Program-made: the position numbers and the translations under genes | The notes under the pieces: generated by a model | Databases searched by the model: none | What the model saw: only the letters and a program-made list of their open reading frames with translations | Told to the model about the DNA's origin: nothing | Shown here: positions 4,480 through 28,870 of the stretch, piece by piece | Position numbering within the stretch: the stretch's first letter is position 1 | How the letters are laid out: each line of letters starts with the position of its first letter | Assembly (NCBI GenBank): GCA_963989385.1 | Contig: OZ022503.1 | Location: forward strand, 48,234,858-48,298,857 | DNA length: 64,000 bases | Reading direction: 5' to 3' | From: Ctena decussata | Lineage: Eukaryota > Mollusca > Bivalvia > Lucinida > Lucinidae

Positions 4480-4554
4480 CTTATATTTTCAACATTATAT
4501 ATGCATCCTACTAAAGACAATGGTTCAGTCAGACATTGCAAATGACATCATACT

Positions 4555-4639
4555 CACACTGGTCTGGCATTCAACACGGGTAACGAAGACAACGTCCAGG
4601 TTTCGTAATTCCTACGTCTAGCCAACGACGAAAATGGCG
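4555..4639 (+). repeat. Left terminal inverted repeat of the giant element
   Basis: 85 bp, identical to the reverse complement of 28781-28865. The terminus is CACACTGGTCTGG, preceded by the target duplication ATACT at 4550-4554. Weaker similarity continues to about 4665 (GGGGGCGAATCGGT). Confidence 0.9.
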
Positions 4640-4722
4640 GATTTTAATGGGGGCGAATCGGTCATAACACATTCAATTATTGATTTTTACGTATTGTAAA
4701 GGGTATCAATTAAGCCAATACT

Positions 4723-4732
4723 CTTACGGACC
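4723..4732 (+). promoter_or_regulatory. Subterminal motif CTTACGGACC, left
   Basis: Begins 168 bp from the left terminus. The reverse complement begins 168 bp from the right terminus (28688-28697). The same motif lies 95 bp from each end of the 408-bp relative. Symmetric placement suggests a transposase-binding site; this is inference from position only. Confidence 0.5.
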
Positions 4733-4869
4733 CCAGAAATTATGCTCGATTTTATTGAGAATATCCAAAAACGGTCACAAAGATGCCCGAGGGAGAAATG
4801 CAAGATCCCGCGAGACAGCTACTGCTGATATCACTGGGGAAAGTAGGATTCTTAGATTCTAGCTCTGTT

Positions 4870-5690
4870 TAACTGCCTTTATCACTATATTCAGCTGCTG
4901 ATTTTTTTATGCGAACTTGGAGCAGTATGAGTAGTTGCCTGTTATGTAAATTTATTTGAATGTCATTGTCTCTATATGCATATATTGCTATTTTTTCATT
5001 ACAACGACCATGCCAACGTAATCAATACAGCGCGGAAATAACGAAGTTAACTTTTATTTCACATTTAAAGTGATTAAACTGCAAAAATGTTTACGTATGG
5101 CGGGTTCAAAAGTGACAGGTGTAATTAACGCGGTACTATAAGCCATAAACATGAAGTGATTCTAAGTCATTCGATGGATATCAGCTGTAAAAGTTCACTT
5201 CAGATGGGGCCTTGCTTTTCAGTGAAACACTAGCGAGTCTAAAACGGGTCAGTTGCGCCACAGAGGCTTGAAATAATAGTTTCTGTATAGCGAACAAAGA
5301 CCTAGCTACTAATTACAATGATTTCCTCGTCAGACTTATATAAAATAAGGTACCCCAAATAGTTTAACCAAGGATTCCTCCCCTTGTATATAAATAAATA
5401 CAATCGGTATCCTTTTACCCATACCAAATCTAATTCTGGCCCCTATGGCGGCGCACACCAGTAAGGAATTTACTGCTTGGTAATTTGTGCAATTGAGTCC
5501 TTATAGCAAACACAGCTGAACCATTATCCATCTTACAATGACAAACAAGTGCAGCGTGAATGAATTATAGCTGGTAAAAACTCACTAGTTGTAAAATTAT
5601 TTTTCATGTCACACACGTGTCCTTAAACGGTTATGGACGGACACATGGTGCCTCATACTGCGGACATGAGAACGTACATCATAGGTGCGG
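4870..5690. other. AT-rich stretch, nothing recognised
   Basis: No long frame, no recognisable repeat arms and no splice-flanked exon that reads convincingly. It lies between the left end of the giant element and a low-complexity tract. Confidence 0.5.
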
Positions 5691-5694
5691 GGAG

Positions 5695-6045
5695 TGTGTG
5701 TGTGTGTGTGGGGGGGGGGAGAATTTTACAACAATTCTACAATTATGTTTCTCGATTACTCTAATAAGTTCTGAATAGTTAGATCCTTTGAATGCTAGGA
5801 ACACATCAAAGAAACGAAAATAGCAGAATTGTTTGAGTCTCTTCTTGACCAGTAATGAAATGTGCATCACCGCCAACGCTCCCACCCCCTGCCCCGATTA
5901 CTCTAATTAGTTCTGAATAGTTAGTTCCTTTATAAGCTAGGAATACTTCAAAGAAATGAAAATAGCAGAATCAATTAGATGAATCTGTTCATGGCCAGTG
6001 ACGAAACGTGCCACATCAACAACGCCCCCGGCCCTTCCCTCTTCC
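5695..6045. repeat. TG/G microsatellite and a roughly 145-bp direct duplication
   Basis: A GTGTGTGTG-G(n) tract is followed by two tandem copies of a roughly 145-bp unit starting near 5749 and 5897 (both contain CGATTACTCTAAT and TTCTGAATAGTTAG). They differ by many point changes. No coding content. Confidence 0.75.
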
Positions 6046-6215
6046 AGCCACGCCACCACCCCACCGCCATTTCCCTAACACCGGCTTGAGCAGATAGACC
6101 CCCCTCCAAAAAAAAAAAATCTAAATGAACTCAATGATCCGAAAGGACCAGAAAATATAATCTGAACTAGTGTAGTCAGTCTTTCCGCAAAACGGTTCCC
6201 CTTTGTTATATAAAT

Positions 6216-6450
6216 GAGCCGCGACACGAGAAAACCAACAATGTGGTTGTGCGGCCAGCGCAGACTCAGATCAGTCTGGCCATCCACCTAGCCCGATCAG
6301 TCTCTTCACTAAGCGCTTAAAGGGTAGCCAAGGGTCTAAGCTACCTTCATGCGGACAGCGAAGACTCTGATCAGACTGGGCGGATGCCCAGGCTGATCTG
6401 TGTCTGCGCTGGGCGCACGACCACATTGTTGGTTTTGTCGTGTCGCGGCT
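6216..6450. mobile_element. Palindromic foldback element, family A, copy 1
   Basis: Begins GAGCCGCGACACGA and ends with its complement TCGTGTCGCGGCT. The whole 235 bp folds on itself: AGACTCAGATCAG near the left is matched by CTGATCTGTGTCT on the right. There is no coding capacity, so it must be non-autonomous. First of 11 near-complete copies in the window. Confidence 0.85.
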
Positions 6451-6937
6451 AAAATATCGGTTGCAGGTTCAGTGTGACGTTGAATCTTTAAAGTGTGACA
6501 CCAAAAGGTGTTGGATTGCAACCATGTTTTTTAATACTTTACTACCCTGATATTATTTTGGTTAGTCTATATCTTAATTAAATTTACTAGGAGTAACCGT
6601 AGTTATTATTTATTTATTTTTGATGTAGAGAGCATGTTAATGTGCTTGAGACAGGTCTTCGAAATGAGTCACAAACAAGCAGTGAAACACGCATGCACTG
6701 TACCAGTGGCGGCCCTTAACGTTACCATGCGCTGATTGATGCATTTTGCAAACCTTTTTTGTGAATTTAAGCTATAAATAATCACTAGCCGTTCTGATAT
6801 TGTGGTCTGTGTCATATTTTGTTCGGATTATAAGTCCAAGTGATTCCACTATGTAAGGGTCAAGCGTCATAGTCCCCCTGAAAAGAAATGATGTGCTGGT
6901 ATGAGGGTGCCTATCAGACTACGCGGGCTATAAACCC

Positions 6938-7117
6938 TGAGGCCACCATTTGAACAAACTTGATTGAGGTCCACTAGACAATGCTTCATACCAAATATCA
7001 AATCCTTAGGCCTAGTGGTTTCAGAGAAGATGTCGTTTAAAGGAAATTGTTGACGACGGACGACGGACACTGGGTGATCACAATAGCTCACCCTGAGCCT
7101 ATGGCTCAGGTGAGCTA
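6938..7117 (+). mobile_element. Terminal fragment of the composite GCTCACC element
   Basis: Matches the 2505-2700 end of the composite element in reverse orientation: part of one repeat unit, the GACGACGGACGACGG stretch, and the closing hairpin ending GGTGAGCTAAAA. The rest of the element is missing. Confidence 0.75.
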
Positions 7118-7289
7118 AAAAATAATAATAATAAAAAAAACGCAGAGTCATTCATAACTTGGGACTGCGGAGGCACTGTAACTATAAAAGAGAAAATATT
7201 CCATCCATCTGCATCCTTTTATCGTAGCAGCCCTAATTTTATAAAGTTATCCAGGACCGAAAGTATGGTATGCTTATTACTTTTGACTC

Positions 7290-7540
7290 GCCCTTTTAGG
7301 GGGGTGGTCGGGTGGTGCGATGGTGCTGTGTGTAACTTCCAGTGCCGGGGCGTCCTACTGATCTGGAATTGTAGGGCAAGGGCCTACTGTGCTTGCACTA
7401 GGTGCGGGTGGGGTGGTTTGGACATTTTTTCTCTCGTCTATCATTTCTCCTCTTTCTCCCTCTCTGGGAGACGGCCCGATATAGACTGAAATACTGTCTC
7501 AAAGGGTCGTTAAAACCAAAACAATCAATCAATCAATCGC
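7290..7540 (+). mobile_element. SINE-like element ending in (AATC)n
   Basis: Has a conserved body (CAGTGCCGGGGCGTCCTA, then GCACTAGGTGCGGG) and a tail AGGGTCGTTAAAACC followed by AATCAATCAATC. Related pieces are at 51595-51765 (minus) and 62195-62265. The short simple-repeat tail and dispersed copies suggest a SINE; the family name is unknown to me. Confidence 0.6.
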
Positions 7541-7974
7541 CCTTTTAGTTGTCGGACAGTCTCACCAGGGATGCGCCAATTCTCGAAAAACTGGGTAAAA
7601 CCTGACATACCTTTACAAAAATCAATGAAAGAAGGTAAGAGTTCACATGATTCGTAATCCCTTGTGTAAATACAGGGCCAACGTCAAAAATAGCCAGTCC
7701 TCATTTCTTTTAAAATCGAGACACATTGGAGATACATCTGAAGCCTCTAAGGTAAGAACGTAGTTTTAAACATTAAACGATGCTTCAAGAGTCCCAGTGA
7801 GTTAAATATTTTTATTTATTTATGCATATAGTTTTGCTTTAAAGTATTGAAATATTGATCACCGTAGTCAAAAGTTTGCACACGTCTTAACAGATTTGAC
7901 GTGTCGATGTAAACCTCAGTCGCTGTGTTTTCTTAATTCCGCTTTCTGGCAAATAGTGCAAAGCATCTTGTCGC

Positions 7975-8100
7975 CTTGAGCATCAACCCCCCCCCCTCCC
8001 CCGCTGTCATTGTAATTGTTAATTTGCACATTGAGCATCACTCCCCCGCCCCCAACCCCCACCCCCGCCCGCCCTTGTCATTGTTAATTTGCACGATGTA
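7975..8100. repeat. C-rich local duplication
   Basis: Two copies of a roughly 60-bp unit (TTGAGCATCA, C-rich block, GTCATTG, TTAATTTGCAC). Proline-rich translation here is not a gene. Confidence 0.65.
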
Positions 8101-8203
8101 TCTGACATTATTATCAACTAATATCAATATCGTTATTTATGCTATCGACCGGAACGATACGATACAAACTAGCTGTTGAGAATTAGGTATTGACCGAGCA
8201 ATA

Positions 8204-8299
8204 TCCCAGCGGGCACATGACGTCGAAACGACGTCGTAGTGACATCGATGCGACGTCAAGTGGCATGGACGTCAGTGCGACGTCATTTGCTCCTGGGAT
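8204..8299. mobile_element. Small ACGTC palindrome, family B, copy 1
   Basis: Termini CCCAGCGGGCACATGACG and CCTGGGA bracket repeated GACGTC half-sites. Same family as 14244, 18789, 25768, 26163 and 39463. Confidence 0.7.
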
Positions 8300-8401
8300 G
8301 GTTTTCGCCAGTATTTATTGTTGGGGTCACTGTTTGGTCATCTATGCATGTTTCGAATTTTTCTTCGGAAAAGTGAAGTTGTAACAATTTAGCATACATA
8401 T

Positions 8402-8583
8402 ACACGGTGGTAATACCGTTTTAGGTACCTACGTTGTTGACCGAGACGGTACTATACATGCCGGCTGTCGACCGAGCTGCATTTGCTGGCGGTTGTCTCG
8501 GTCGACAGCCATTTTTGCACGTTTGGTAAATGAATGGCTTGGTCGACAGCACAGGCAGGGAAACTGGTATTACTACCGTGGTA
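8402..8583. mobile_element. MITE with TACACGGTRGTAATACC ends
   Basis: 182-bp foldback-type element. The left end ACGGTGGTAATACCGTTT pairs with the right end AAACTGGTATTACTACCGT. The middle has repeated GGTCGACAGC-type inverted motifs. It ends 25 bp before the proposed first exon of the zinc-finger gene, so it may supply or disturb its promoter. Confidence 0.65.
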
Positions 8584-8607
8584 TAGCATGAAATACAGGA
8601 TCAGAAG

Positions 8608-11600
8608 ATGGATCTAGGAAACAATGAATACCGTAACAAAAGAATAGAAATGCTGCGCGTTTTCAACGAAGATGACATGGTAAAATATTTGAGGTACTAG
8701 AGATATTTGTCTTTTTGTCTACAAGAAAAGCTTTAAAATCCAACCGAATGTTCTTAAGATGGATGGATTGCAATTTCACGCCCTTTTCAACAGTAATTAG
8801 GTCTTGACGATGGAAATGTGATTATGAAAGGCGGTATGCAACAGCTTCGTTTACGTTTGAAAGATTCCAGCGAGGTTGAACCCAGGACCGCTAGATCAGC
8901 AGGCTAGCGCTTAACCAGCCGAACCACCGGGCCTCAAATGCCTGTAAGAATATCGTCAGTCCGGCTTAATTTAGTGTCAATTACTTTCAACGTTTCCAAA
9001 GTTTTTAACGTAATTCTTTTGTGCTTTTATCATTATCAACCTCCCAAAAGGTAACAAGGCAAATTATTTTTTATTTTACTTAGGACCGCCAGGTCATCAG
9101 ACCAGCGCTACCGTGGCTTTTTCAGTTGTGTTATGGGCTCACCGTATGCTGGCATAGCGTACAACAAACATAATCCATCCCTCACCCTTCGCTGTCTTTA
9201 ATCGTCTCCCATTCGAAAACGTGTGCCTTTACTCACACTGGTCTGGCATTCATCACAGGCAACGAAGGCAACGTACTATAAAACTTGATTTTTTCGCACA
9301 CCTCTTAGATTAATTTCAAACTACTATTCTTACGGACCCGGCAGTTTGTCATACCTCTTAGTCTGACCAGATTTTTGAAGAAATTCCGTCTAGTATAAAT
9401 GCAGTGCTTGAATAAGTTTATTTACCGATCCGTTACCTAGACGTTGTAGGCCAAAATTTGTTTTCAAGCATTTCTTCAATATGCATACGAATTCAATAAA
9501 ACTTTTGATTCCTATTTCAAGAGCCGGGGATCGGATGGTCCGTGAGACTATACTTCTGAAACAAACTTCTCCTGATGAGCGGAACAAGCAAGATTCATGT
9601 ACGTTGTCTTCGTTACCTGTGTTGAATGCCAGACCAGTGTGTTACTGCTTGGTTGTTGATTGCTGGCCCAATAAGGATTCAAACCCACCCCCTTTAGCGC
9701 CATATCTGAGAGTTGAAAGAAACAACAGTCATAGATATGTTTGATTGTTGTCGGCAGACATGGCCTTCACCGTTGATGGTATATCACGACTTAAATTAAA
9801 TATGACGAGAGTAAATTAATGATCCCGTTTTTACAACAATTTACAAATGATTTAGTACCTTGAATTTAAGTATTATTTCTGTAACAAGACCAAATGTGGC
9901 AATAAAAGATGCAATTTCTGACAGTTTGAATTAGGACATAATAGTTGATCATTCAATCAGACTATTATGTTTTCGTAGGTTATCGAAGTTTCATCGTGAC
10001 AGGCCTACGCTGTTCAAGAGTTCTCTTCAAACAAATTAAGATAACAGATCATCCATAAATAAACTGTTGATCAATGAGCTGACTGTTATATTCGATGGAT
10101 GGATAACATGGGGTTTTACGTCCTTTTTAACAGTATTTCAGTCATATCAGGACAATGGGCTCGTGATAATGAAAGGCTGTGTGCAACGGAACCCAGTTTA
10201 CGATAGAAAGAAAACCGCCTACGGCGGGGCTCGAACCCGCGACCGCTAGAGCTTAACCCACTGAGCTACGGGGCTTCTTTTATATATGTACGCCAAAAAG
10301 TACGAAAGCCTAAAACAACAGCCAAGAGAAAGAGAAAAATTAAAATTGAGCCGCGACACGACAAAACCAACAATGTGGTTTTGCGCATCCGCCCAGTCTG
10401 ATCAGAGTCTTCGCTGTCCGCGTGGAGGTAGCTTAGACCCTTCGCTACGATTTGAGCACTTTACGAAGTGTCTGATCAAACTGGATGGATGCCCAGGCTG
10501 ATCTGAGTCTGCGCTGGGCGCACAACCACATTGTTGGTTTTGTCGTGTCGCGGCTCAGATGAGGTTATCGACCTTATGCACAGCTTCGTCACGACAAAAT
10601 CAACAAAGTGGCATGTCCAGCGAAGGCTTAGATCAGCCTGGGCACCCGCCTAGTCTGATCAGAGTATTTGCTGTGTATTAAAAGGGAAGCCAATCTTTCT
10701 TTTCTTTGGCGGGGAAATTATTTACCCTGACGAAATTGTAAAACCTTTGTTTATCCCGTAAACAGTTAGTTTCTGACGGCATTTTGATGCCGTCTGGAAG
10801 AACACGTCATGTCGTTCTAAGTAAAAGGTAAAACTATATAAGAACTTTTCCCATCGAGAAAAAAAAATTTTCTCTATGGACTTGGCGATTTCTTTTCGCC
10901 CATCTATTCTGTTCTACCCAAATTAACCACGTGCTTTCTCAGATCAGTAACTACACAGAATCAGCTCAATTGTTGCAAACAGTCGGCACCTTTGACACCG
11001 ATGTCTCGCAGGGAAAGCTGGGAAATTTTCATTCGGCTTACATCGGCAGTTATTTTTGCACGTTTTACCAAAACTGGATAATACCCATAAGCCGATGCCC
11101 CAAATACACGATAATACCCTCTTACGTGAATGAAATCAGTTCTGGCTTTCATTTGGTTCACAGATACGCAACATTAAGCCCCCCCCCCCCCCCTTCAATA
11201 AAAAAATGGCAATAGCGAGACTGAAGCGAGTCAGTGAATCAACCCAGCTAGACCTGTTATCTTAAGTCTGTAGATTCATGATATGAGCGAATCAGATAAC
11301 AAAGCTTCTGATCAGATTGCATGGATGTGCAAGCTGGTCTGAGTCTTTGCAGTTCGCAGATGCCAGAAGCACCATTTTAATAAGTTGCAGCTCAAATATC
11401 AGTTTTTCTTTGTTTCAGGAAGAAAATGCATCAGTGCGACAAGTGCTGCAAGTCATACGAGAGAAAGAAATCTCTAGATAAGCACATACGTGTGCATGAT
11501 GAACTCAGACCTTTTGTGTGTCACATCTGCACAAAGTCATTTGTATACAAGGACAACTTAAAACAGCACTTAATCACCCACACAGATGCAGCTACTGAAA

Positions 11601-13156
11601 TTTGCCCGACTTGTGGTAAAAAATTTAAACAAAGAGGTGGTCTGCATAAACACATGAGCATCCATGATCCGACAAGGTATGTGTGCGGCACTTGTGGGAA
11701 AAAGTATGATCGCAGAGAATACTTGATGGCACATGTAAATACCCACGGTGATAAACAAACATGCAGCTCATGTGATGCTAAAGTCTTCCATTTAGACAAA
11801 CACATTTGCAAGAAGGAGAGAATAGAACCTCAGTACGAGTGCCAAATTTGTAAGAAGAGGTTCAGGCAGAAAAGATACCTAAGGGAACATACAAAATATT
11901 CCCACAGTATGGCATATTCATTTGAATGCCAAAAATGTGGCAAATTTTTTAATTACAGATCCAGTCTGCATAATCATAAGAAATTCTGTGAGACACAGTC
12001 TCAAGTAGCGGCCCATACTGAAACATTGCCTCTGTCTCCTGTTCAAGTTCAGGCTCAGGATCGTACTTGTGCCCAAATTGAAACACAGCCTCCATCTCCT
12101 GTTCATTTTCAGGCTCAGGATCGTACTTGTGGTATGACTGAAGCAAAGACTCGTGTTCTGGATCATGTTCAGACTCAGGATCACGATTATTCCCAGCCTA
12201 AAACATGTATTTTTGCACCGATTCATGTTCAGACCGAAGATCAGAGTTGTGCTCAGACTGGAACACAGATTTATCCACAGGCTCATCTTCAGACTAAGGA
12301 TTGCGTTGCTGCCGAGATAAAAGGACTTAGTCATTCTCAGGCTCATGATACATCTAAGACTCAGCAATATGAGTATGTTCAGAATGAAATGCAGCGCCAT
12401 CCTCAGTCTCATGTTCAGATACAGGATCATGCTTGTGCTTGGATTGTATCACAGTCCCAATTTTCTAATTTTGTTCAGACCCAGGATCGTACGTTTGCAC
12501 AGACTGAAACACTGCCTTATGATCTGGTTTCTGTTCAGGCTCAGGATAGTTCTTTTAGCCAACCTGAAACACCTCTTCTATCCCCATTTTATATTCAGGC
12601 GCAAAATCATACTAATGCCCTGACTAAAAAACTCGCTCATTCACCGGTTCTGGCTCAAGATCTGGCTAATGTTCAGACAGAAACACTGCCTAATAAACCA
12701 TTTAATGTTCAGGCTGAGGACCAGAATTATATCCAGACTGAAACACTGCCTCATTCACCAATAAATGTTCAGAGAAAGGTTCGTGCTTATGACCAGGCTG
12801 AAACCCTGCCTCTTTTACCGCTAAGTGTTCACACTGAGGATCTGGCTTATGTCCAGACTGAAACACTGCATCATTCAGCTCTAAATCTTCAGGGATATGG
12901 TTTGGCTTATGCCCAGACCGAAACACTGTCCCCTTCACTACTTAAGAATCAGTCTCAGGACTTGGCTTCTGTCCCGACAGAAACACTGGCTCATTCACCA
13001 CTTGCTGTTCAGACTCATGATCTTGCTTATGCACAGACTGAAACTCTGCCTCATTCGCCACTACATCTTCAGACACATGATTTGGCTTACGTCCAGACTG
13101 ATCCACTGTCCAAGTCACTGCTTCAGATTCAATCTCAGGATTTGGCACACACCTAG
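8608..13156 (+). CDS. C2H2 zinc-finger protein with 20-residue repeats
   Basis: Proposed two-exon gene: exon 1 8608-8693 (ATG in good context, AAG ATG G) and exon 2 11419-13156. Exon 2 follows a clear acceptor (TTTCTTTGTTTCAG), the junction is in frame (phase 2), and the product is about 607 residues. Exon 1 encodes a short charged leader and is less certain; otherwise the start is the ATG at 11426. Nucleotides 11432-11990 encode about seven zinc fingers, five or six canonical C2H2 (for example C-x2-C-x12-H-x3-H) and one shortened C2HC (near 11761-11810). They are likely nuclear DNA-binding. From 12001 the protein is about 19 repeats of 20 residues, consensus near QTETLPHSPLNVQTQDLAYA. The stop at 13154 lies inside the array. 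It sits inside the giant TIR element, convergent with the YqaJ gene; a role in that element is inference. Confidence 0.7.
8760..8936 (-). mobile_element. tRNA-headed SINE
   Basis: Read on the minus strand, it starts with a tRNA-like head (GCGCTAGCCTGCTG region and B-box-like GGTTCAACC) followed by a body ending in AATCCATCCATC. Relatives are at 10085-10276, 54355-54520 and, as a tail only, 19530-19600. It lies within the proposed zinc-finger intron. Confidence 0.65.
9234..9641. mobile_element. 408-bp MITE related to the giant element
   Basis: Ends CACACTGGTCTGGCATTCA share about 40 bp with the giant element's termini. It is flanked by TTACT on both sides (9229-9233, 9642-9646). The motif CTTACGGACC (right copy with one mismatch) begins exactly 95 bp from each end (9329-9338; 9537-9546). 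There is no transposase frame. It is a non-autonomous relative nested within the zinc-finger intron of the large element. Confidence 0.85.
10085..10276 (-). mobile_element. tRNA-headed SINE
   Basis: The minus strand begins GAAGCCCCGTAGCTCAGTGG (A-box-like) and has a good B box, GGGTTCGAGCCCC. A body like that of 8760-8936 follows. The arms do not form a complete cloverleaf and the body is shared with other copies, so this is a SINE rather than a tRNA gene. Confidence 0.75.
10348..10556. mobile_element. Foldback family A, copy 2
   Basis: Full termini GAGCCGCGACACGA and TCGTGTCGCGGCTC, with an internal deletion relative to the 235-bp form (209 bp). Confidence 0.85.
10587..10692. mobile_element. 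Foldback family A, half copy
   Basis: One arm only (CACGACAAAATCAACAAAG through GTCTGATCAGAGT), starting 30 bp after the previous copy. The other arm is lost. Confidence 0.65.
10700..11418. other. Intron sequence before the zinc-finger exon
   Basis: Holds a homopolymer C run near 11178 and a decayed fragment resembling a family A arm near 11300-11360 (TCTGATCAGATTGC, TGGTCTGAGTC). No convincing exon. Confidence 0.45.
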
Positions 13157-14243: not shown

Positions 14244-14330
14244 ATCCAGCGGGCACACAACATCGAAATGACGTCGTATAGATGTCGATGTCAATACGAC
14301 GTCATTTCGACGTGATTTACCTGCTGGGTA
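14244..14330. mobile_element. Small ACGTC palindrome, family B, copy 2
   Basis: TATCCAGCGGGCACA at the left and ACCTGCTGGGTA at the right enclose GACGTC repeats; 87 bp. Confidence 0.7.
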
Positions 14331-14479
14331 TTTACATTTCCAGTATTGACATTACCGGGGTAAAAATTTCTTTTTACTATTTTTGGTCTTAGTCTTTGTT
14401 AATGTGTAATGACAGCTTCCCAATGCCAGCTGTAAAGACAATTGTATGCGGAGATATTTCTCTCCTCCTGTATATGGGT

Positions 14480-16293: not shown

Positions 16294-19200
16294 CTATTCA
16301 TCATCATTTTTAATAGCCTTTTCATCGTAGTCCTCACCATAACCAGCTCGTACTGTTGACAAAAGCTTTGTTTCGTTGCATGTATAAAATGTGTGGCGCA
16401 TAGGCCGCTGTCCTTTAGGGGGAGCATCAAGGTCTTTGGTAATTTCACCCAACTTTCGGCGAACCTTGGTCCGTCTTCGATTCGTCTTGTCAAATGTATG
16501 ATTCCTGGAAACAGAACAAGAAACATTATCTATCTTTGTGTTATGCTAGACTGTCTAAACGTTGAAAACCGATCGATCGTAGCTTAAGATAGTGTTTTGT
16601 GGTAAATACAAAAATGTGAAAAAAAAAGATCAAAGTGAATTTTTGCGCAAAGAGGTTTTAAATCACCATCATTTTTGAAAATACATTTAGGTTTGAACGT
16701 CAGAAGAGCATCCCGGCAATTATTTGTTCTTATTTGTTATTAAATGCATTCATTAATTATAGAAAGGGCAGGTATATTTTTTTCTTATAAACAGTCTAAA
16801 CACTACATCACTTTGACCAAGACATACGTGTAAGTGAAATTGTTCAGTCTTAAAAAGTGGACTCCCTTAAGTACTCATCATAATTTTGACGAAAATATGA
16901 AACAACCTACTTTTTTCTATCTGCTCTACCTCATTATGTGTAAAGTGTTGAAAAAAAAGTTGCTGTGAGGTTCTTCTCAATTTATAGAAGTACCTTCAGA
17001 CTAACTCATTTTCAATAATATCTTAGGTCTGAAATATAGTTACACGTAAACTGGCAAGTACCGTCAAACATTGCCAATGATCGACATTCACCGTATACAT
17101 TTCATAATATTACCAGTTTTATTTAACACCGACAAGCGGGTTTAATGTGAAGATGGCAATATCAGAATACCACATGCGGTCCAATCCTTTAGAAATATGG
17201 GGAACAAACATGGTTTTTCGTGCACTAACATTTGTCAGGTTCTTAAGAAGTTATTAAAACCCGAAGCAGAAGGCTACCCAAGCGATCTAGCAAATGAAAG
17301 TGCAGTGAAAAAGTGTGTTTGATCGTTATCATCGTTATTATCAAAAGATACAGATAAAGTTTTATTTAACATCGCATATTAGAAACAGACAGCATGAGCT
17401 CTGTGGAGCCTTTATTGCGACAAACAAGGTATATCCAGTGACAATTTATACTTACCTGATGACTTAACTTTAACTTCCTAGGACTACCCTTTAAAGGCGA
17501 GTGTCAGCCAAGGGAGCTCCTAGTACCATTTTTACGCCTTTGGTATGGCGCGGCCGGGATTCGAACTCACGACCTCCCGTTACCGAACCGAACACTCTAC
17601 CACTGAGCTATCGGGGCCGGTATTACATAAATTGAACCACAATGCAAAAAACAAAACAAAAAAAAAAAAAAAAAAAAATGAAAAAAAAAAAAAAAAAAAA
17701 AAAAAATTGGGAAAATCACTTCGATGTCATGTGCTCTTCAATTCTTGAAAGATTCGAATCGTATTTAACTCTCGCTTACAAGTCTTTCATCGATAACCAT
17801 AACTGCACTTGCAAACTACTCGGTTGCTTCTCTACTGATACGGTATTGCCCTTAAAATTGCATATGATAACCGCAAAGTGGGACATCATTAGCACGTGAT
17901 TTGCCATATCAACTAATGGGTTTGTGTGCGTTTAAACATGCTGGTAAACAACGTGTGACCCGATAATGTGATTAAAGGTTGCTTTTTCCTATGAAAACCG
18001 GAGGCTACTCCAAGGCGGAAAAAATCGACAGACTTTGCATATTCAATCTTTTCATAAGACGAATCACACCAAATGCGTGTTTACTGGAGGCTATAGTTTA
18101 GTAGTTTGACACTGGCGAAAGGACGGGTGACTTGTTATCTTGACTCCACGACGCGCACGCGAACATATATGAGCCGCGACGCGAGAAAACCAACAATGTG
18201 GTTGTGCGCCCTGTCCAGACTCAGATCAGCCTTGGCATCCGCCCAGTCTGGTCAGACTCATTTTAAGTGCTCAAAGGATAGCTAAGTGTCTAGGCTACCT
18301 TCATGCGGACAGCGAAGACTCTGATCAGACTGGGCGGATGCCCAGGCTGATCTGAGTCTGCGCTGGGCGCACAACCACATTGTTGGTTTTGTCGTGTCGC
18401 GGCTCATATATTAAAAGTTCTTGTCTATTTGTCAACTTCAAATCAAGGGCCATCATTTTATAAGATCACGAACAGTGCAGCCTATCCTCAGTCTGGATTG
18501 ACGCATTTTAGAAAGAAAAGAAAAATCTAAATACCCACCTAGGTTCTATGGTCTCTAAACAGTCGAATTTTCGTCCGGGGTCTTGGATACACCTCATCTT
18601 GTCCTTGCTAAGAGAAATTTCGCCTTCTGTATGTGGATACACTGAAGACCTTGATGTCTTCATATGAAATCCTCTGAAATATAGCCGTGCCGTCGTTTAA
18701 TTTATCATAAGTTAAAACAAGAAACAATAATGGTCAAACAATAGAGGTCAAATAGGCATACATTTATGACTATTACAATTGCCACTCATACCCAGCGGGG
18801 GCATGACGTCAAAATGACGTTTATGCGACGGGATTGGCATGATGTCATTTTGACGTCGTGTGCCTATTGGGTATACTTTTGTCACTCTCGCGTGACTGCA
18901 TAACTAGTAGTAGAATATTTGAGCCGCGACACGACAAAACCAACGAAGTGGCATGCGCGCCCATCAAAGACTCAGATCAGCCTGGGCATCTGCCCAGTCC
19001 GACCAGAATCTTCGCTGTGTGCTTTAAGGGTAACTAAGGGACTACGCTACATCGACGCCAACAGCGAAGAATCTGATCAGACTGATCATATGTCCAGGCT
19101 GATCTTAGTCGGCATCAGCTGGGCGCACAACCACTTTGTTGGTTTTGTCATGTCGCTACTCACTTCACATTGTGTTTTATTCTTTTCTTTTACGTTGGAT

Positions 19201-22200
19201 TCACAGAAGTGGGTTAATTTCAGAAATGCATGCAAGTCAGTGGATGTTCAGAAAAGGGTGAAATACTTTTGGCCTCCGACTGTAAACCCCTTACGGCTTT
19301 ACTCCCCATGTGAGCTATTCACTTTAATAGACATCGATTACATACTAGGGGACCGAATAAACCGTTGATATAAATAAAAATCACTCACATAATTTTCACC
19401 TGAGAATTGAATTCGCGTCCAACAGGCGTGGGTGTGGCTATTTATATAGTTCATGTTAAAAATACACTGTTGACTTCTACAGCGGCTTTATTGTCTTAGC
19501 TCTTGTGAAAAAGATAATATGGGTGGATGGATGGCTGAATTGCAACTTAACGTTTTATTAAACAATATATCAGGACGACCGGAGGGTTATGATGATAGAC
19601 TGTCCCACTGGGCACACAAGGTTGAATCAATCTCGACTCGACCGTGATTCAACGTCACGACGTTGAATCAAGGTTGTTTCAAGGTTGATTCAACTTTATG
19701 TGTCTGCTGGTTGTCTGATTGAACCGAAATGGGTGAGACGATAAGGTTGCCCAATAAACAATATTTCAGTTCTTAGGAGGTGAGGTAGGAACTGGTAAGA
19801 TGATAAGGATGCCCCGTCATTTCGTGCCGAGGTAGGAATTAAACCGAGTCTGCTATTTTCAATTTGCTGTGTTACTTACCTCTCAGGGTTGCACTTGTAA
19901 GTCATAACTTCTGCGAGGCTTGACATGATTCTTGGTATATCTTTAGCCTTTACGGACATGGTGTTGTTGACGTTCATATCCTGAATAATCCCAACACACG
20001 TCTCTGCGGGTAAACTACTCGCAGTCCTGACACAGTAAGATGACCCACCGCACATACCGTACAGCTGCAGTTTCGATTCAATACCGGAAATAAATCCTTC
20101 AAACGATACAACTGACCACCCCTTTATGTATTGCGTTGGTGGTGGAAAGCACCCAAAGTCGACGTCTTTCAATAAATAATCACGTAACTGTAGCCATCGG
20201 TCGATTCTATCATTTATATCTATTGCCGGGATATCCTCTGCCTCGTACCACCTACGTATTAATCTACAAAAATTTGCCTCATTTCTATATCCTATTTTTA
20301 TCATTTCTGTTTCAACTTCTTCAGAGAAATGTGTTTGAGCAAAGGCGTTTGATTGTTTATCGACTAAATCGTCTACAAGTGCAGGCGTCAGTTTTGTTTT
20401 GTAAGACCTAGCGACTTCTTTCCATGCTTTAGGTGAAATATTTTGTAGACCGACAGTACTAGTTCTTATCCTGAGATTCGTCAGCAAATGATGTGAATCA
20501 ATACACTTGCAAAGAAGTTCATCTGTGGCTGGATTAACCTCCGGATAAGAATACCAGTCTATGTCAATATCTCTCTCTGTTGTTTTTATTTTAGATGTCA
20601 CGACACGTTCGTTTTTCCATTTTTCGAGCTCAGAGGGAAACAAATACTGGGCGTATGCGATGTTGAGAACGGATTTCGGCACTTTCCTACTTCTCAGAAT
20701 TCTTTCAGCTAATGTCTTCAGAAAAGGAACTTGAAATGTCCGTTTTCGCTTTTTTGGCACAGCTTTTGAACAGTCTCCAATAGACTGAGAAATAGCATTT
20801 ATCTTTTTATCCTTTGTCCACGTTTTGTTATAGTTAAAATTCACATTTTGCTGAATGATACCAGTGATGAGATCTAATTCCGCTCTTATGAAGCTTGCAA
20901 GTCCTTCTGCGTTTTTCAGCATTTGACTCAGTTCTATTAGTGAAAACTTCTTCCATTTTTCACTCCTTTTGCTCTCTCGAAGGCTCGATAAAATATGGCT
21001 GTAGTCCTTTTCTTGGAGGGTATAACGGTCATTAATACTGTTTTCAACTACTGTAACCTTATCTCTTCTGAAACTAGAAGACTGGTCAAGGTTATCTGCG
21101 ATGGAATTGCTCTCGTTTTCTTCGTGGTTGTTTGATTCGTCTGTTTGACCAGGATTATCAACTGTCTGCCCAATAATGTAGTGCTCAGTATTCAAACTCT
21201 CCGAGTGATTGGTAGAGTCAGATTCGTCTTCAAAAAGATCATTCAACGGCATCACAATACCGTCTCCTTCAGGGTTTTCTTCACATTGGCTGTGTTGATT
21301 GCGGACTAGTTCCTCGATTTCGTTCCCTATGCTGTTTACGGCACTGATGAGTTCATCATCGCCACTTGACGATATAATTGCCATTATATCGTCAGGAATC
21401 CAGTCGTATGTCACAGATTTTGTCTCTGGTGTGTCCATGAAGATTTCAGTCTGATTCTCTCCCCTTTCAGAGTCATCTGGTTTTCGTAGCCAGTACTTCT
21501 GAGCTGTTCTAGTTCGTACAGTTTGGAATGCATGTCCAGTTGAAGAGACCGTTAGAGTTCCAGATTTCTGTATTACCGAAATCCCTTCAATGCTTTCCTT
21601 ATCAGGCCTCAGCGTCACACAGTTTAATTGTTTCAATTTATCAATGATTTCTTTCTTTTTCATTTTTGTTATCAAGCCCCAAACGTCTTTTTGAAACTGG
21701 ATTTTTGTCAGTGGTTTGCCCGCAGAATCGCGTACAAGCAGACCGTACCATTGGCCATCAAATGCAAGAAGGGGAATTTTCAAGCCATACTTCATGCATT
21801 CTTGTAAAACATAATTACTGGCTTTTCGCAGCTGATCTGAAGTAAACTTGTAATCTTTCAGTCCGAACGCTATAGGCATGGAATTTGGTAACTCTGATGA
21901 CCAACTACGATCCTTGTTTGATATCACCCACACCATTACTTCATTTGCTTTCCTTCGGGAAAGCTGGTGACCAGTCCGCAAGACTGTCTCAGATTCATCC
22001 AATGCCATTCTAAGATCGCTTAATATTTCCTCTATCTCTCTAATTTCTTTAGATTTCCTTGTGGTTCTGTAATAGGCGGTTTCTGTATAGACGTCATTAT
22101 TATTTTCATTTGACATGCGGATAGAGGGTATTTCAGCCAGCAACCTTACTTTAGAATCACAGTAGTTCTTGATTTTTAATTTCAATTCCCTTGTGATTTG

Positions 22201-24171
22201 TTTCAGTTTTTTCGGCCGTAATGGTTCATCATTGCCGTATAAGTCATCTATCTCTGTCTTAATTGATTGCCACAAATCTTCATCAAAATCAAGTTCAAAA
22301 AAAGTTGAGCTCTCTTTCGTGTAGCATACAAACAGAAGCTGCTTTACAGATAAAGCATACATTTCACTTAGACACTGACAAACATAGTAACTTGGAATTT
22401 CGTAGTATATGTTTTCTCGCCTTTCTTTGGGAAAAGGGCATTTTATTTCTACTGCAGACACGCATATTGCATCGTCCATTGTAGAAGTATTGGACAATCG
22501 TAGACTTCCGTCTGGCGAAACTTCAATGAGTATGTCTTTTTGCGAACCGCTTAGCAAATAACAACCTTCTTCTACGTAACATAGTTGTGGACAGAACATT
22601 GGCAAAAACTTTCCAACCATTGTAGCCACTGCATTAGGTTCATTCATTACACCGTGTTCAAAATATTTCTTCACTTCATCTGTCACAGGCATTTCCAAAC
22701 CTTTGATTTTTTTATCGAAATGAGCTTTCTGCTCCTTTAAAGACCTTAAACCGATCGCACTGTGAATGCTACTACCAGTTACCGGCGCAGAAGCCCGAAC
22801 TGTATGCCACATATCACTTCGCTGCTTGATTAAACGTGTTGGTAATGGTTGATCTTGACAGTCAACATCTTTCAACTGAAACATATTTGTTTGGCTTTTT
22901 GGGTTAGCTTCGTCGGCGACACAGAAATTATGGGATGTCAAATTAAGTTCACTGCCAATTTGACATAATTTTCCAACATTACGCAGTGCTGTTTCAAGAA
23001 ACTGTCTGACACGATACAAAAACGCTTGGATTCCACTGATTGCAAATACAAATTTAGACGTCTTCCAATCCTGACCGGCGCGTTCTTTTAACTGCTGCAG
23101 TCCATACTCTTGTTTCTTTTGAAGAGTTCTACTTTCTTTCAGTCTTATTGTCACAAAATATATCAGTACCTTCATCATATCCACAATACTAAACAGCTGT
23201 CTTCTTTCTAGATCACGTTTTGCATCAATAGAAGCGACCATACTGTTAATATCACATATGAGGGCTACCTCTTTTTCTAATCTTGTGCGATTTTCTTCTA
23301 CAGTCGGAGAATTATCAAAGCCAAACATATCTACGTCACCATGTTCACCGTCTAATCCTGATGTAACTTTCTTCCCGTCTACACAAAGCATATTCATCTT
23401 ACTAAAATCACTTGATTCAACAGTTCGTAGTACCTCGTGCATCAATCCTGGTTTAATATAATTTGGAATACTCCCAGCACCATCAAGAAGCACACAGCGA
23501 GCTGGTACTGCAAAATTTATAGCGGATGAATCCGGCTGAAGCAATGTTCGTTTTGTTTCTTTAGTCAAAATCTGTCCTTCAAATCGAGGGCCAGCCATGA
23601 AAGACAAAAATTTTCCATGAAAAAGCCGATAGCCCGCCCTCCAGAATGCCTTTGTTTCATTCCAATACCACATCGTGTTTACAGATGCGCATGAGAACCA
23701 CCTAACGGTTTCCAGCCATAGTCTAAAGGCTATATTTGTCAGAGGATATTTACGTTTCTTTATGAGATTAAAAAATATTGTCAGATAAAACAAAAGCCCA
23801 GCACTGGCTAATATGGTTGCCACTTCCATATCAGTTGCGATCTCCATATATTCTTTCATTTCAGGAGTTAACGTTTCGCTCGCTTCATCAAAAAGTATAT
23901 TTTCTTCTATCACTAAAGTTTGTTTTTTGCATGGTGACGGTGAGGTAAGTAATTTTAACTTTTTGCGCGATGCTTTTTTATGTGAAGAAACGGGAGTAAG
24001 ATTTCTTTTGAACGTTGCACAGCATGTTGGAAACATTTTGGAAGGTGTTCTCGTCGGTGTTTTACAAGGAGTTCGTTGAATAGTATTGGAACGTTTGTAC
24101 TGACTGTGTACCACTTTCATCTTCTTCGGCCTCTTCAGCCACAGGAAGACACTTCTTTTTCGCTTGCCCAT
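16294..24171 (-). CDS. YqaJ-type nuclease protein, three exons
   Basis: Exons 24171-19880, 18673-18539 and 16504-16294 give 4638 nt and about 1545 residues. The long open frame ends at a TAA that is part of a splice donor (GAG|GTAAGT). The next exons have acceptors ATTTCAG and TTTCCAG, and both junctions are phase 2. The start ATG has G at -3 and +4; an acceptor-like ATTTCAG at 24219 suggests a 5' leader exon. Residues 1-75 are very basic; 116-137 are hydrophobic. Residues about 447-640 match the YqaJ/lambda-exonuclease fold: TGS at 465, E511 in HGVMNE, D554 in SPDG, and E575-x-K577 in VEIKCPFP. Other notable blocks are VDG at 264-266, GDVDMFGF at 278-285 and FDGQWYG at 804-810. Residues about 950-1060 are acidic. 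YqaJ proteins resect or cut DNA. Lodged in the giant TIR element, it is the best candidate for mobilisation or replication, by inference. The smaller exons are less certain than exon 1. Confidence 0.75.
17540..17706 (-). mobile_element. tRNA-like SINE head with A-rich run
   Basis: The minus strand reads GGCCCCGATAGCTCAGTGG with a B box GAGTTCGAATCCC. The arms do not pair as in a functional tRNA. An A-rich tract lies at its far side. Confidence 0.6.
18171..18405. mobile_element. Foldback family A, copy 3
   Basis: Complete 235-bp palindrome within YqaJ intron 2, flanked by ATATAT on the left and ATATAT on the right. Confidence 0.9.
18789..18873. mobile_element. Small ACGTC palindrome, family B, copy 3
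   Basis: TACCCAGCGGGGGCATGACG to GTGTGCCTATTGGGTA, 85 bp, within YqaJ intron 1. Confidence 0.75.
18921..19161. mobile_element. Foldback family A, copy 4
   Basis: Complete left end GAGCCGCGACACGA; the right end is mutated (TCATGTCGCTACTC). Lies in YqaJ intron 1. Confidence 0.8.
19530..19709. mobile_element. SINE tail plus GTTGAATCAAC palindrome (family C)
   Basis: 19530-19600 matches the body of the SINE at 10085. 19603-19709 is a separate small palindrome with ends TCCCACTGGGCACACAAG and TGTGTCTGCTGG and repeats of GTTGAATCAA. It shares outer ends with family B but not the inside. Confidence 0.6.
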
Positions 24172-24327
24172 GTCTGGTTATACCTTGGTGAATTTGGAAC
24201 TACGACAGATACTGACTACTGAAATGTCAAATTAAAAATAGAAAATAAGCTTCTCACAGTTAGTAAGCAAAACAAAACAAAAAAAAAGAAAAAAGGAATA
24301 CGTTGCATTAACACGCCGGGTAAACTA

Positions 24328-25250
24328 TCAAAGGTAGCTCCGACGGCGGTACATGAAAAATCGGTTGTGACAGGCATCCGGAAGGGCCTGTGATTAGCAA
24401 AACATTGACATTAAAGGGTACTAGTAGGTGTCCGTCTTTTCTTAAAAATATATGATAACCATGGAGTTTATTGAAAATCAAATAGTGCTTTTCGACCCTT
24501 GAAAATATAAAGTTTTGTTATCTGTCATACCAACCACCACTTTTCATGAATATGAAAGATACGGCTGTAAGTGCCTTTGAGGTCAGACAGAAGTACACAT
24601 AAGAAACGTTTTGATCGAAAGATTTCCTAAATGCAATTTTCCTTCTTACGAATCCGTTTCTTACGGCGCACTGACATAAAAGTAAGGCCCTGTCCCAACC
24701 TTTATATAGACAATCTGCAAATAAGGCTGGACTCTCTGGAAAAAATGGAGGTGACTGTGATGGCAAGGTCTGCAAAAAAACCTTCAGCTTTAAGCTATAT
24801 ATTACTTAAAACACAGGCACCGACATGCTATCATAGGCGCATCCATTAATTTTTAAAAGTATCCAGCCTTATTTTGGGATAGTCGACATTTATATTTGAG
24901 GCAGGAACTTTAGTTTTCATAAGTTTTACAAGACAAACGGATTCGTAAGCATGACAATTACATTTTGGACTTCAAACAACCGAAAAGTTTTCGCTTTGTG
25001 TATTTCTGGCTGACTTTGAAGCGATTTCAAATGTCGCATCTTTCTTGTACATGGAAAGTTCTTGGGGATATGACGGATGACAAAACTATATGAGGGTCAA
25101 ATAACACTCTTTGATTTTTAATCCCCGGTTTTATGTATTTTATCAAAACACGGGTGTCTTCCTTTTATTGTCACTTTTTGCCAAGCACAGGCCACTCTGG
25201 ATGAATGTCACAACCGATTTTATTACCTCCGTCGGAGGTACCTGTGAAAG
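24328..25250. mobile_element. Inverted-repeat-bounded segment, about 0.92 kb
   Basis: Left arm near 24331-24382 (GGTAGCTCCGACGGCGGTA, AATCGGTTGTGACA) is repeated inverted near 25195-25250 (TGTCACAACCGATTTT, CCTCCGTCGGAGGTA). It lies just upstream of the YqaJ start. Short frames inside match nothing I know. No target duplication was identified. Confidence 0.5.
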
Positions 25251-25445
25251 TTTACTAGGCGTGGTTAAGCAGGCGTATGAAAAGACGATAGTCTGTACAG
25301 AAAAAAAATAGCATCCATGAGTATTTCAAAAATAAAAGTACAACAATATGTTTTAGTTGAAATTCATAAACGGTTTCAATTCAAATAACATTTTTTCATT
25401 ACCTGCTTCTGGCATTGTATATGTATATAATATGCTACTATAATT

Positions 25446-25668
25446 GAGCCACGACACGAGTAAAGCACAAAATGGTTGTGCGCACAGCACAGACTCAGAT
25501 TAGCCTTGGCATCCACCCAGTCAGATCAGGGTCTTCACAGTGCGCTTATTGGGTAGCTAAGGGTCTAAGCTACCTCCATGCGGACAGCGAAGACTCTGAT
25601 CAGACCGGGCGAATCTGAGTCTGCGCTGGGCGCACAACCACTTTGTTGGTTTTCTTGTGCAGCGGCTC
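25446..25668. mobile_element. Foldback family A, copy 5
   Basis: GAGCCACGACACGA to GCAGCGGCTC. The right arm lacks about 12 bp of the usual stem (TGCCCAGGCTGA missing). Confidence 0.85.
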
Positions 25669-25767
25669 ATATGTATTCCAAAACTAAGACTGACTTGTCA
25701 TAGCGGCATGGATCTTAGCGGAAGTTGGCTTCTATTGACCCATTTATGCCCAGTGGACTAGACCTCC

Positions 25768-25879
25768 TACCCAGCAGGCACATGACGTTGAAATGACGTC
25801 GTACTGACGTCGATGCGACGTAATGACGTCGCATCGACGTCAGTATGACGTCATTTTAACGTCATGTGCCTGCTGGGTA
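25768..25879. mobile_element. Small ACGTC palindrome, family B, best copy
   Basis: A 112-bp, almost perfect palindrome from TACCCAGCAGGCACATGACG to its complement. It contains about ten ACGTC/GACGT half-sites around a 4-base centre. TGACGTCA-like sites resemble CRE elements bound by bZIP factors, but function is unknown. Confidence 0.85.
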
Positions 25880-26036
25880 TTCTGTCTTCATCAAATGAGT
25901 ATGTTCATTTGACAGTTAAGGGGTTTCCCAGGTTCAGTTTATGTTTAAAGAGTAAAGAGTAATACCCATTTGACTTAATAAGACAAAGCCTTTATTTAAG
26001 GGTCAAGAATATATAAGTAAACTGCCGAAATTAATT

Positions 26037-26297
26037 ACGTGCGTTGCGAAAGACTGGCGAAGCGGGGGATCGAACCTACGATCTCTGTATTGGTAGTCTT
26101 CCGCCTTAGCCTCTGTACTACTGCATGCCGCTTCTACACGAGAGAGAGAGAGACAGAGACGACAAGACGTCGAAATGACGTAGACGTGACGTCAAATCGA
26201 CGTCATGCAGATATTGCAGCACGTGCCGTCGAAATGACGTTACGTCCACGTTGATTCGACGTAATCACGTAGCATCGGCGTCATGTGCCTGTTGGGA
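26037..26297. mobile_element. tRNA-like SINE head and decayed family B palindrome
   Basis: 26037-26135, minus strand: GAAGCGGCATGCAGTAG with B box GGTTCGATCCCCC; the acceptor-like 7-bp stem pairs but the T arm does not. 26163-26297: diverged GACGTC repeats ending CATGTGCCTGTTGGGA. Confidence 0.55.
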
Positions 26298-26419
26298 CTG
26301 GCCAAACTTTAGCTACATTCTTCACAGAGAGAGAGAGAGATACAGACAGAAAGACGGACAGACAGCGAGAGAGACAAGCACTTTCATATACGTAATAAAC
26401 TAGGGCTGGTGGAAAAATA

Positions 26420-26793
26420 TGTTCCTCCCAATCAGGGTTCACAGGACTTTTCAAAAACACATGGACTTCATACAAGGGGGGGGGGGAGAGAAATACAGTA
26501 TCACTTGTATTTATGATCAGAATGAAATTTCGATGTCCAGATGGGCTATGGGTTTGGAATCAGAGAAGGATATGGCAGCCAAAGGAGAGGGATGGGCTCC
26601 GCCTTTCCTATGCTTTACCCAAGATACAGTGGGTCTCTGACCTCGGCTACCCCTACGAAGACTACGAGAAGCTTTACCTTTACCCAGCAGGCACACAACG
26701 TTGAATCAACATTGAATCAACCTTGATTCAACATAATGACGTTGAATTAAGGTTGAATCAAAGTTTAATTGAATGTTATTTGCCGTATGGGTA
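26420..26793 (+). mobile_element. SINE 3' part and family C palindrome
   Basis: 26520-26680 (GAATCAGAGAAGGATATGGC, AAGATACAGTGGGTCTCTGA) matches the 3' half of the SINE at 39088-39365. 26681-26793 is a GTTGAATCAAC palindrome, TACCCAGCAGGCACACAACG to CCGTATGGGTA. A poly-G run is near 26478. Confidence 0.65.
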
Positions 26794-26879
26794 CCTATCC
26801 CGCCGTCTTTGGAATTCAGGCTTTCACTACACACAGCCTTTCATCTCCATATGACTGAAATCCGACTGAAAGGGACACT

Positions 26880-27165
26880 TACTGACTGATTGACTAAACC
26901 GTTGCTTAACGTCCACGGTAAACAGCTATGGTCATGTCGAGACGGTCAGTTAACCTAACCACACTATTCCTGGGCAGGCTTAGACTTCCTAAGCGGCAAA
27001 CCAGTAACCAGTACTAAGTGCACATATTTTCGCCAGTAACTGACAACTGCCCTTCTTGAATCAGCGGAAGGAGAAACGAAAGTATGTGGTCAGACCGGGT
27101 ATCGAACCTAGGTCCTCTGTCTTGTAAGTCAGTTACAATACCTATGCCATCTGACTATCATGAGC
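26880..27165 (-). mobile_element. tRNA-headed SINE, long-core type, copy 1
   Basis: Nearly identical core to 44697-44965 (GCTTAACGTCCACGGTAAAC, CACACTATTCCTGGGCAGG). A tRNA-like head sits at the right on the minus strand (B box GGTTCGATACCC). Confidence 0.8.
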
Positions 27166-27169
27166 AAAA

Positions 27170-27330
27170 CGGGAAAAACCTAAGTCTACCAAATTAGCCT
27201 GCGTATACACGCAGTTTGATAACGATCATCACTGTCTGCTTACACAGCCATTGTGCCAGAAAACAACAAAACCTGTGATCAGGCTGCGTAAGTGCGCAGG
27301 CTGATCAGAACTTTCGCTGTCCACACATGC
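27170..27330. repeat. Diverged inverted repeat with TGATCAG arms
   Basis: GCCTGCGTATACACGCAG and GGCTGCGTAAGTGCGCAGG hairpins followed by CTGATCAGAACTTTCGCTG. Distantly like family A. Confidence 0.4.
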
Positions 27331-27589
27331 CCCAAAAGACCATTTTTTCCTCATAGCACGGCGCATTTTATGATTTGATATTGCCCTGTTAGCGTAACGA
27401 AGTACAACCCCAACTGGCCTTTACGGCCAGTTGGCTATGGAAAACTTTTAGCTTTTTTACCCATTAGTCATATGCAGCGTCTGGTCTGGATCTGTACCGC
27501 TGATTAATGTCCAGTGTGTGGTTTGCTGGGCTTTAATTGGGGCAATTTGGAAATAGGTGTCGTAGGTTTTGCAGCATAGGTAGAGGCGT

Positions 27590-27790
27590 ACAGGTTTGAC
27601 AGCACAGTTGGAGAAAAGAACACAGACCTTTGAGATGATCTGCTACCGAAGACTAATGAACATTTTGTACAAGGATCACGTAACCAATGAGGTTTGCAGA
27701 AAGATCCAAGCCGCCATTGGAGAATATGATGAATTCCTGGCCATGGTCAAGAAACGGAATCTAAGGTGGTCCTTTTTCAGGACACGGGAG
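27590..27790 (+). pseudogene. LINE ORF2 3' fragment
   Basis: The frame from 27596 contains the phrases QLEKRTQTFEM, CYRRLM and KDHVTNE, ending KKRNLRWSF. This is the familiar C-terminal region found in LINE endonuclease/reverse-transcriptase proteins, close to RTE/CR1-type elements. Upstream reverse-transcriptase motifs are missing, and the frame runs into a G-rich repeat at 27787, so it is a truncated relic. It lies about 1.1 kb from the right end of the giant element and is a nested insertion. Confidence 0.7.
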
Positions 27791-28687
27791 GGGGGGGGGG
27801 AGGGGAGAGGGGGCGGGGCGAGGCGAGGCGAGGCGGAAGAGGTGCGCTCGCGAGGTAATACGTACATGTAGGCGCTACGTATCATTTGTCTGCAGCTACC
27901 TATCTCGCGAAAAGGTTCGGAGAGGGATGCCCGTTGCTTTCATAGACTTTCCCATCACCTTTTCCTATCGATTTTTTGGGGTTTAGTGGCATAAAGAAAT
28001 TTAATACAGAAATGCGTGATTGTTGTACTAAATTTGATAAAGGTACATATATATTATGCAATGTCCATGACGTTTGGACAACGTTGGGTAGACGTTGTTC
28101 CATCGTCGTGTGCTCACTGTGGATCAGGCTGTTACAAGTTTGGTAAAATGGCTGGCATTTAATAATTCTGTCATATACAGTCGAAAAATATTGCAAATCA
28201 ACATAATGACGCCAAACTGACTGACTACATATTAGCGAGTCATAGAGCAATAAACGGCATAAACATTTCATTGTCACATATGACAGTTGTTAAAAACTAT
28301 AGTAAACGGTAAATTGGTGCAAAATATCTGTACTGGGCTCTGGAAACTGCTTATTTGACCTTTTTATTAAAAAACTTCGTTATTTTTCCGCTGTACTGGA
28401 CTCGTTGCTAGGGGCGTTGTACTGAAAATTCCTTAATTACAGCGCTATTACCGACTCCAGATACAAAAATGGTATTTTATTCATTTTAAGTATTCAGTAT
28501 CTTCGTTCGCACAGCAAAACAATTTTCCAAAACATCTCATTTTATCAGTTATGCGTCATTTTCTTTCTGTTCATGTAGAAAAGACACTGTAAAGCAAACG
28601 CCTCTCAACGGAGATTCAGCACTACAATTAAACGTGCGTGCAAAAGCAGAAAATACCAATACATACCAAACGCATGATAATTTTAGC

Positions 28688-28697
28688 GGTCCGTAAG
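28688..28697 (-). promoter_or_regulatory. Subterminal motif CTTACGGACC, right
   Basis: Mirror image of 4723-4732, at the same 168-bp distance from the terminus. Neighbouring bases (AAATTAT) also match between the two ends. Confidence 0.5.
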
Positions 28698-28780
28698 GCA
28701 TTTATTATAGGGTAAAACTGATGCATTTCATTACAATGGGTAAACAAAGTTTACTTACCGATTCGCCCCCTCACAATAGT

Positions 28781-28865
28781 CGCCATTTTCGTCGTTGGCT
28801 AGACGTAGGAATTACGAAACCTGGACGTTGTCTTCGTTACCCGTGTTGAATGCCAGACCAGTGTG
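28781..28865 (-). repeat. Right terminal inverted repeat of the giant element
   Basis: 85 bp, exact reverse complement of 4555-4639, followed by ATACT at 28866-28870. Confidence 0.9.
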
Positions 28866-28870
28866 ATACT

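Follow-up and report, generated by a model that had tools for sequence, protein, structure and literature searches.

Positions 4550..28870 of the window, a 64,000-nucleotide stretch of the Ctena decussata genome (C6:48234858-48298857), very probably form a complete 24.3-kb cut-and-paste DNA transposon. On its minus strand the element would encode a spliced transposase of 1545 amino acids, with a P-element-like RNase H (DDE) core that contains a YqaJ nuclease domain. An earlier note had proposed a giant DNA transposon at this location, and the proposal is supported by convergent end pairs, matching flanks and empty sites for the window insertion.

Element ends and their family in the genome

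The left terminal inverted repeat (4555..4639, plus strand) and the right one (28781..28865, minus strand) are exact reverse complements over 85 bp, with imperfect similarity continuing to about 109 bp (94.6%; to about position 4662 on the left). The ends start with CAC and have the sequence CACACTGGTC. Directly outside them lie two copies of ATACT (4550..4554 and 28866..28870), so that the identical ends and the 5-bp target-site duplication of the earlier note were both read exactly. Repeat searches of each end region alone gave no match, the arms being far apart, and a search of viral contigs with the element end likewise yielded 0 matches.

These ends belong to a family dispersed through the source genome of the window, an assembly of 245 contigs and 1.66 Gb. 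Searching it with the 85-bp end brought up 705 first-look candidates, and the 40 that were scored are all 99-100% identical. A 43-bp end allowing at most two mismatches occurs at 220 forward and 230 reverse places, compared with 0 and 0 for a reversed-pattern control. Among 100 listed of these 450 places, there are at least 39 convergent end pairs within 30 kb, spaced 2.3-27.2 kb apart (median 10.5 kb), and no pairs in another orientation; the earlier note had proposed looking for inverted pairs 10-30 kb apart with matching 5-bp flanks. A further 22 of the 100 are single ends, the partners of which may be among the remaining places. Exact 5-bp duplications flank 24 of the 31 pairs examined out of the 39 (the window included), with 4-bp duplications at three, 6-bp duplications at two and none at two. 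By comparison, mismatched combinations of left and right flanks (n = 930) gave 5-bp identity 11 times, 4-bp identity 11 times and 6-bp identity once. The 5-bp duplications are varied and AT-rich, with A at the first position in 15/24 and T at the fifth in 16/24. An alternative reading with a 3-bp TAC duplication and one extra base at the end was dropped given the varied 5-bp duplications at 24/31 pairs.

Past movement of the element is also recorded at its insertion site. When the host flanks of the window insertion were joined with a single ATACT and searched against the genome, the best 40 of 2452 first-look candidates all matched unbroken across the junction, with 89-92% identity, indicating that the insertion target was one copy of a dispersed repeat. 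Two of the 40 scored loci were aligned (L111 and L112), and both have exactly one ATACT at the junction, providing paralogous empty sites.

A second full-length copy, flanked by a duplication of AACTG, is located at C3:107682496-107709724. The two elements are collinear at 97-99% identity (window positions 25671-27270 being outside the comparison), and the C3 copy carries an additional 3.56-kb insertion with a 6-bp overlap. Two shorter copies are deletion derivatives that lack both the transposase and the zinc-finger gene. The first, L059 (5.7 kb), joins window positions 4555-5722 to 24201-28865 at 97.6-98.5% identity, minus about 108 bp, and the second, L060 (9.7 kb), is older, with segment identities of about 82-96%, and corresponds, gaps apart, roughly to 4555-10787 and 25152-28865. 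Given their lengths, and with no close transposase match inside them, the other pairs are inferred to be deletion derivatives as well. The earlier note had also argued from the identical ends to recent movement, an argument of little weight: all 11 of the 11 pairs compared retain identical 85-bp ends, including the diverged L060, making end identity a weak clock.

The probable transposase gene and its predicted divided catalytic domain

The putative transposase gene comprises three predicted exons on the minus strand. Exon 1 (19880..24171) opens with the ATG and lies in a frame that spans 1433 codons between stops and 1431 when counted from the ATG; exon 2 (18539..18673) and exon 3 (16294..16504), the latter supplying the C-terminus and stop, are predicted from homology to the Mercenaria protein P0002, with GT-AG boundaries for exon 2 and an AG acceptor for exon 3. 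The intact 1431-codon frame of the earlier note is therefore present, though only as the first of the gene's three predicted exons. Similarly, the YqaJ nuclease that was reported as an enclosed gene is there, and it is likely part of a P-element-like transposase rather than cargo.

Homologues number 27 in total, with searches returning five (first search; 7991 candidates scored), 15 (alignment query; 7993) and 16 (P0010 query; 6550). Named sources are Mercenaria, which provides the nearest named homologue (46%), Mytilus edulis, M. galloprovincialis, Batillaria and Owenia. In viral contigs, 38 stretches fit the pattern and none was confirmed as a relative. Within the same genome, the transposase query gave 49 matches (33 scored of 116 candidates), and among the scored candidates the only close copy is that in C3 (96-98% amino acid identity; three stops), the other matches having 27-50% identity. 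Across 1428 codons of exon 1, the C3 copy differs from the window by 12 synonymous and 21 non-synonymous changes, one sense codon turned into a stop and three gaps in the alignment; this second transposase copy is broken. Some of the distant relatives are present as copies 94-99.6% identical to one another, which suggests that activity may be recent. The stretches read around two sets of relatives in the same genome gave no inverted ends, either within 8-9 kb of L011 or at the drops in homology that bound the roughly 14 kb common to L024 and L025, and the rule of 5-bp duplications and CAC ends is hence established for the family of the window element only. A weak CAC pair with TATAT at L011 was discarded, since chance can produce such a pair.

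Pfam recognizes YqaJ alone in the window protein (E 1.6e-7), as a lambda-exonuclease-type domain encoded at 22357..22809 on the minus strand; the RNase H domain of P-like transposases (TNP-like_RNaseH_N; PF21787) gave no match there at E up to 1. In the Batillaria homologue P0021, however, YqaJ (504-657) is followed by PF21787 (796-871, covering profile positions 64-132 of 137; E 1.4e-5), and P0022 has the same match more weakly (0.015). Twelve of the 27 homologues were scanned, P0021 being above the cut-off and P0022 below it, and PF21787 was not found in P0001-P0005 or in the five further proteins scanned alongside P0021 and P0022; precomputed Pfam annotation of the homologues places it in P0021 alone. 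The position of PF21787 downstream of YqaJ in these two proteins pointed to a P-like RNase H domain that is interrupted by YqaJ. Structural modelling is consistent with this, predicting a P-type RNase H catalytic domain whose alignment to the Drosophila P transposase (6p5a) covers chain 199-565; in P elements a GTP-binding insertion domain lies between strand 5 and the glutamate helix. In the model, a long helical hairpin and the YqaJ nuclease are placed between the proposed first catalytic aspartate and the rest of the RNase H domain.

Three invariant acidic residues are candidates for the catalytic triad: D265 (codon 23377..23379, minus strand), located on the first strand of the model; D805 (21757..21759, minus strand), the P0021 counterpart of which, residue 863, falls within the PF21787 match; and E1390 (20002..20004, minus strand), located in a modelled helix. 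Counting covering rows only, they are conserved in 16/16, 12/12 and 10/10 sequences of alignment A2 and in 15/15, 16/16 and 14/14 of alignment A3, the two alignments having four proteins in common. Based on order and secondary structure in the model rather than residue-level alignment, they are proposed to correspond to D230, D303 and E531 of the P element. A sequence search of the PDB with the window protein gave no credible match; with the A3 profile it gave LHK-Exo (E 2e-4) and no transposase. No THAP domain was matched by Pfam at E up to 1 in the window protein or P0001-P0005. The N-terminus is uninformative in this respect: residues 1-98 were modelled with pLDDT under 50, and an N-terminal model of pLDDT 62.5 listed only coiled-coil and other helical matches.

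An unlikely alternative is that the 24-kb element is mobile and the YqaJ protein an accessory nuclease, with another, unrecognized transposase moving the ends. In ISL2EU, YqaJ is a separate open reading frame next to a DDE transposase (PMC4482050, PMC9179366), and close copies of the gene occur at just two loci among the 33/116 scored candidates, implying that most end pairs depended on something acting in trans. Translated in all six frames, the stretches 4640-11383, 13157-19875 and 24178-28780 gave no Pfam match at E up to 0.1, the two long frames having been scanned at the protein level; Pfam could miss a spliced transposase that has diverged and lies elsewhere in the element. The P-type fold and candidate triad modelled for the YqaJ protein favour its being the transposase itself.

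Comparison with known transposons and proposed mechanism

P elements are model cut-and-paste transposons, 2.9 kb in length, that are distinguished by their use of GTP and by target-site duplications of 7-8 bp, as also found for Galileo (PMC4168063, PMC7776569). The window element appears to share with this superfamily (P, 1360, Galileo, THAP9; 6p5a/6pe2) the modelled catalytic fold and candidate DDE triad. It differs in its 5-bp duplications, its 24-kb length, its separate zinc-finger gene, the lack of a detected THAP domain and the YqaJ nuclease and helical hairpin between the first and second aspartates. Given the duplication length and the THAP result, it is not filed as a P element, though it would work like one.

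Transib and RAG-like elements resemble the window element in their terminal CAC and 5-bp duplications, features also reported for protostome RAGL elements (PMC7204232), yet membership of this group is very improbable. The ends do not fit the RSS/Transib-like consensus CACTWMC (PMC7204232), the transposase model does not look Transib- or RAG-like, and the scans run so far point away from a Transib/RAG1 match. ISL2EU, of the PHIS superfamily, is a eukaryotic transposon that likewise has a YqaJ exonuclease; identity with it was rejected, as its YqaJ is a separate open reading frame and its duplications are AT (PMC4482050), whereas YqaJ here is inside the transposase. Being embedded in a transposase also sets the nuclease apart from lambda exonuclease, YqaJ and LHK-Exo.

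Maverick/Polinton elements carry genes for a protein-primed polymerase B, an integrase and capsid proteins. They are large DNA elements with inverted ends, as is Teratorn, and in this they resemble the window element. No Pfam match to Maverick polymerase B, integrase or capsid proteins was found in its six-frame stretches and two long frames, and Maverick identity was rejected accordingly; from both Maverick/Polinton and Teratorn it differs in having no viral replication or capsid genes by Pfam and in its transposase. Teratorn combines piggyBac with a herpesvirus (PMC6431247).

It seems likely, with less assurance than for the element itself, that the window element represents a distinct superfamily of P-like transposons widespread in molluscs and annelids. 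The hallmarks of such a superfamily would be 5-bp duplications and a 5'-3' exonuclease of the lambda type housed in the catalytic domain, by which excision and a programmed resection of the ends would be coupled, and its YqaJ genes would have been counted among the 'recombinases' or endogenous viral elements of bivalves. Scallop and clam YqaJ genes have been described in these terms (PMC10225492, PMC7826175), and the superfamily could account for some of them. The available text of a bivalve transposon study that searched 17 superfamilies, P included (PMC10294476), makes no mention of YqaJ, nor does that of a giant transposon paper (PMC6431247). The accessible PMC literature yielded no report of a P-like transposase with a YqaJ domain in its interior, subscription journals and Repbase being outside the search. 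If correct, the split catalytic domain with a second nuclease, the 5-bp duplications and the 24-kb body would indicate the extent to which the P fold can be remodelled, and transposition and end resection would be linked within one protein.

Mechanistically, the transposase would bind the element ends (CACACTGGTCTGGCATTCA...) and mediate P-element-like DDE excision and integration, with D265, D805 and E1390 cutting the ends, which would then be joined to AT-rich target DNA at staggered positions. Its YqaJ exonuclease may trim back either the element ends or those of the donor, thereby steering repair. Resection followed by interrupted or incomplete repair could yield internally deleted derivatives, which the intact protein might then mobilize in trans.

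Nested insertions and the zinc-finger gene

A non-autonomous relative (MITE) of 408 bp, missed by the earlier note, is nested in the element at 9234..9641. Its ends agree with those of the large element over the first ~41 bp, and it is flanked by TTACT (9229-9233 and 9642-9646); the C3 copy and L060 are without it, each having one TTACT, and so represent its empty sites. The window also contains a different MITE family, present as an inverted pair at 43325-43550/53663-53887. Both observations could favour two unrelated MITE ends flanking 24 kb of host DNA by chance, a reading ruled out by the empty site of the window insertion and by the second copy, in which the same interval recurs with the same ends on another chromosome, and the outer ends moreover share 85 bp as against about 41 bp with the MITE. 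A nested dispersed repeat of ~240 bp (18171..18405) is likewise absent from the C3 copy.

The zinc-finger gene that the earlier note placed within the element is indeed present and is common to both full-length copies. It is a C2H2 zinc-finger frame of 590 amino acids with a 20-residue repeat region (11384..13156, plus strand). It is probably a gene of the element, which may have been captured and may encode an additional protein with a DNA-binding or regulatory role. All three first-look candidates in the genome were scored; apart from the window, the gene has a counterpart of 99% DNA identity in the C3 copy and a 75% match, about 600 bp long, at C11.

Other YqaJ/P-like transposase families

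Among the 30 loci fetched from the same genome, other, distant genes for YqaJ/P-like transposases, akin to the predicted protein of the giant element in which a YqaJ nuclease lies inside a P-element-like RNase H domain, also occur as copies that are 94-99.6% identical. These form the near-identical groups L011/L021, L013/L031, L015/L020/L036, L018/L019, L024/L025 and L026/L027, and several of the genes retain open frames of ~1400-1730 codons. Given this near-identity and the long frames, several YqaJ/P-like families may be recently mobile. Loci L063/L064 and L024/L025 belong to a stretch of ~14 kb common to two copies, on contigs C9 and C4, at roughly 92-99% identity. Homology is lost sharply at its limits, and inverted ends, sought at these drops, were not found for either copy.

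The C3 copy and a zinc-finger relative

The second full-length copy of the giant element, on contig C3, carries a 3.56-kb insertion (G000:C3:107682830-107686389); the sequences on its two sides overlap by 6 bp, at window 4884-4889. An open frame on contig C11 (L070; C11:3247167-3247763) is 75% identical to the element's zinc-finger gene, and is possibly its host source gene or part of a related element.

Repeats in the window

A ~240-bp repeat family, its members about 75-92% alike, is nested in both orientations inside and around the giant element (window 6209-6457, 10382-10693, 18165-18413, 18915-19165 and 25440-25676), and it recurs at several points within 33819-46512 and once more at 58637-58730. 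Two tandem arrays are also present: about 11 copies of a 156-bp unit, 88% alike (2638-4366), ending some 185 bp ahead of the giant-element insertion, and a 21/42-bp array containing palindromic TCCTACGTAGGA units (36671-37115). A separate MITE of ~225 bp, with termini GGGCGTAGCTAC...GTTACGCCCC, is unrelated to the giant element; its two copies (43325-43550 and 53663-53887) are inverted relative to each other and 98% alike. A third relative (84%) lies at 63888-64000, where the window end cuts it off.
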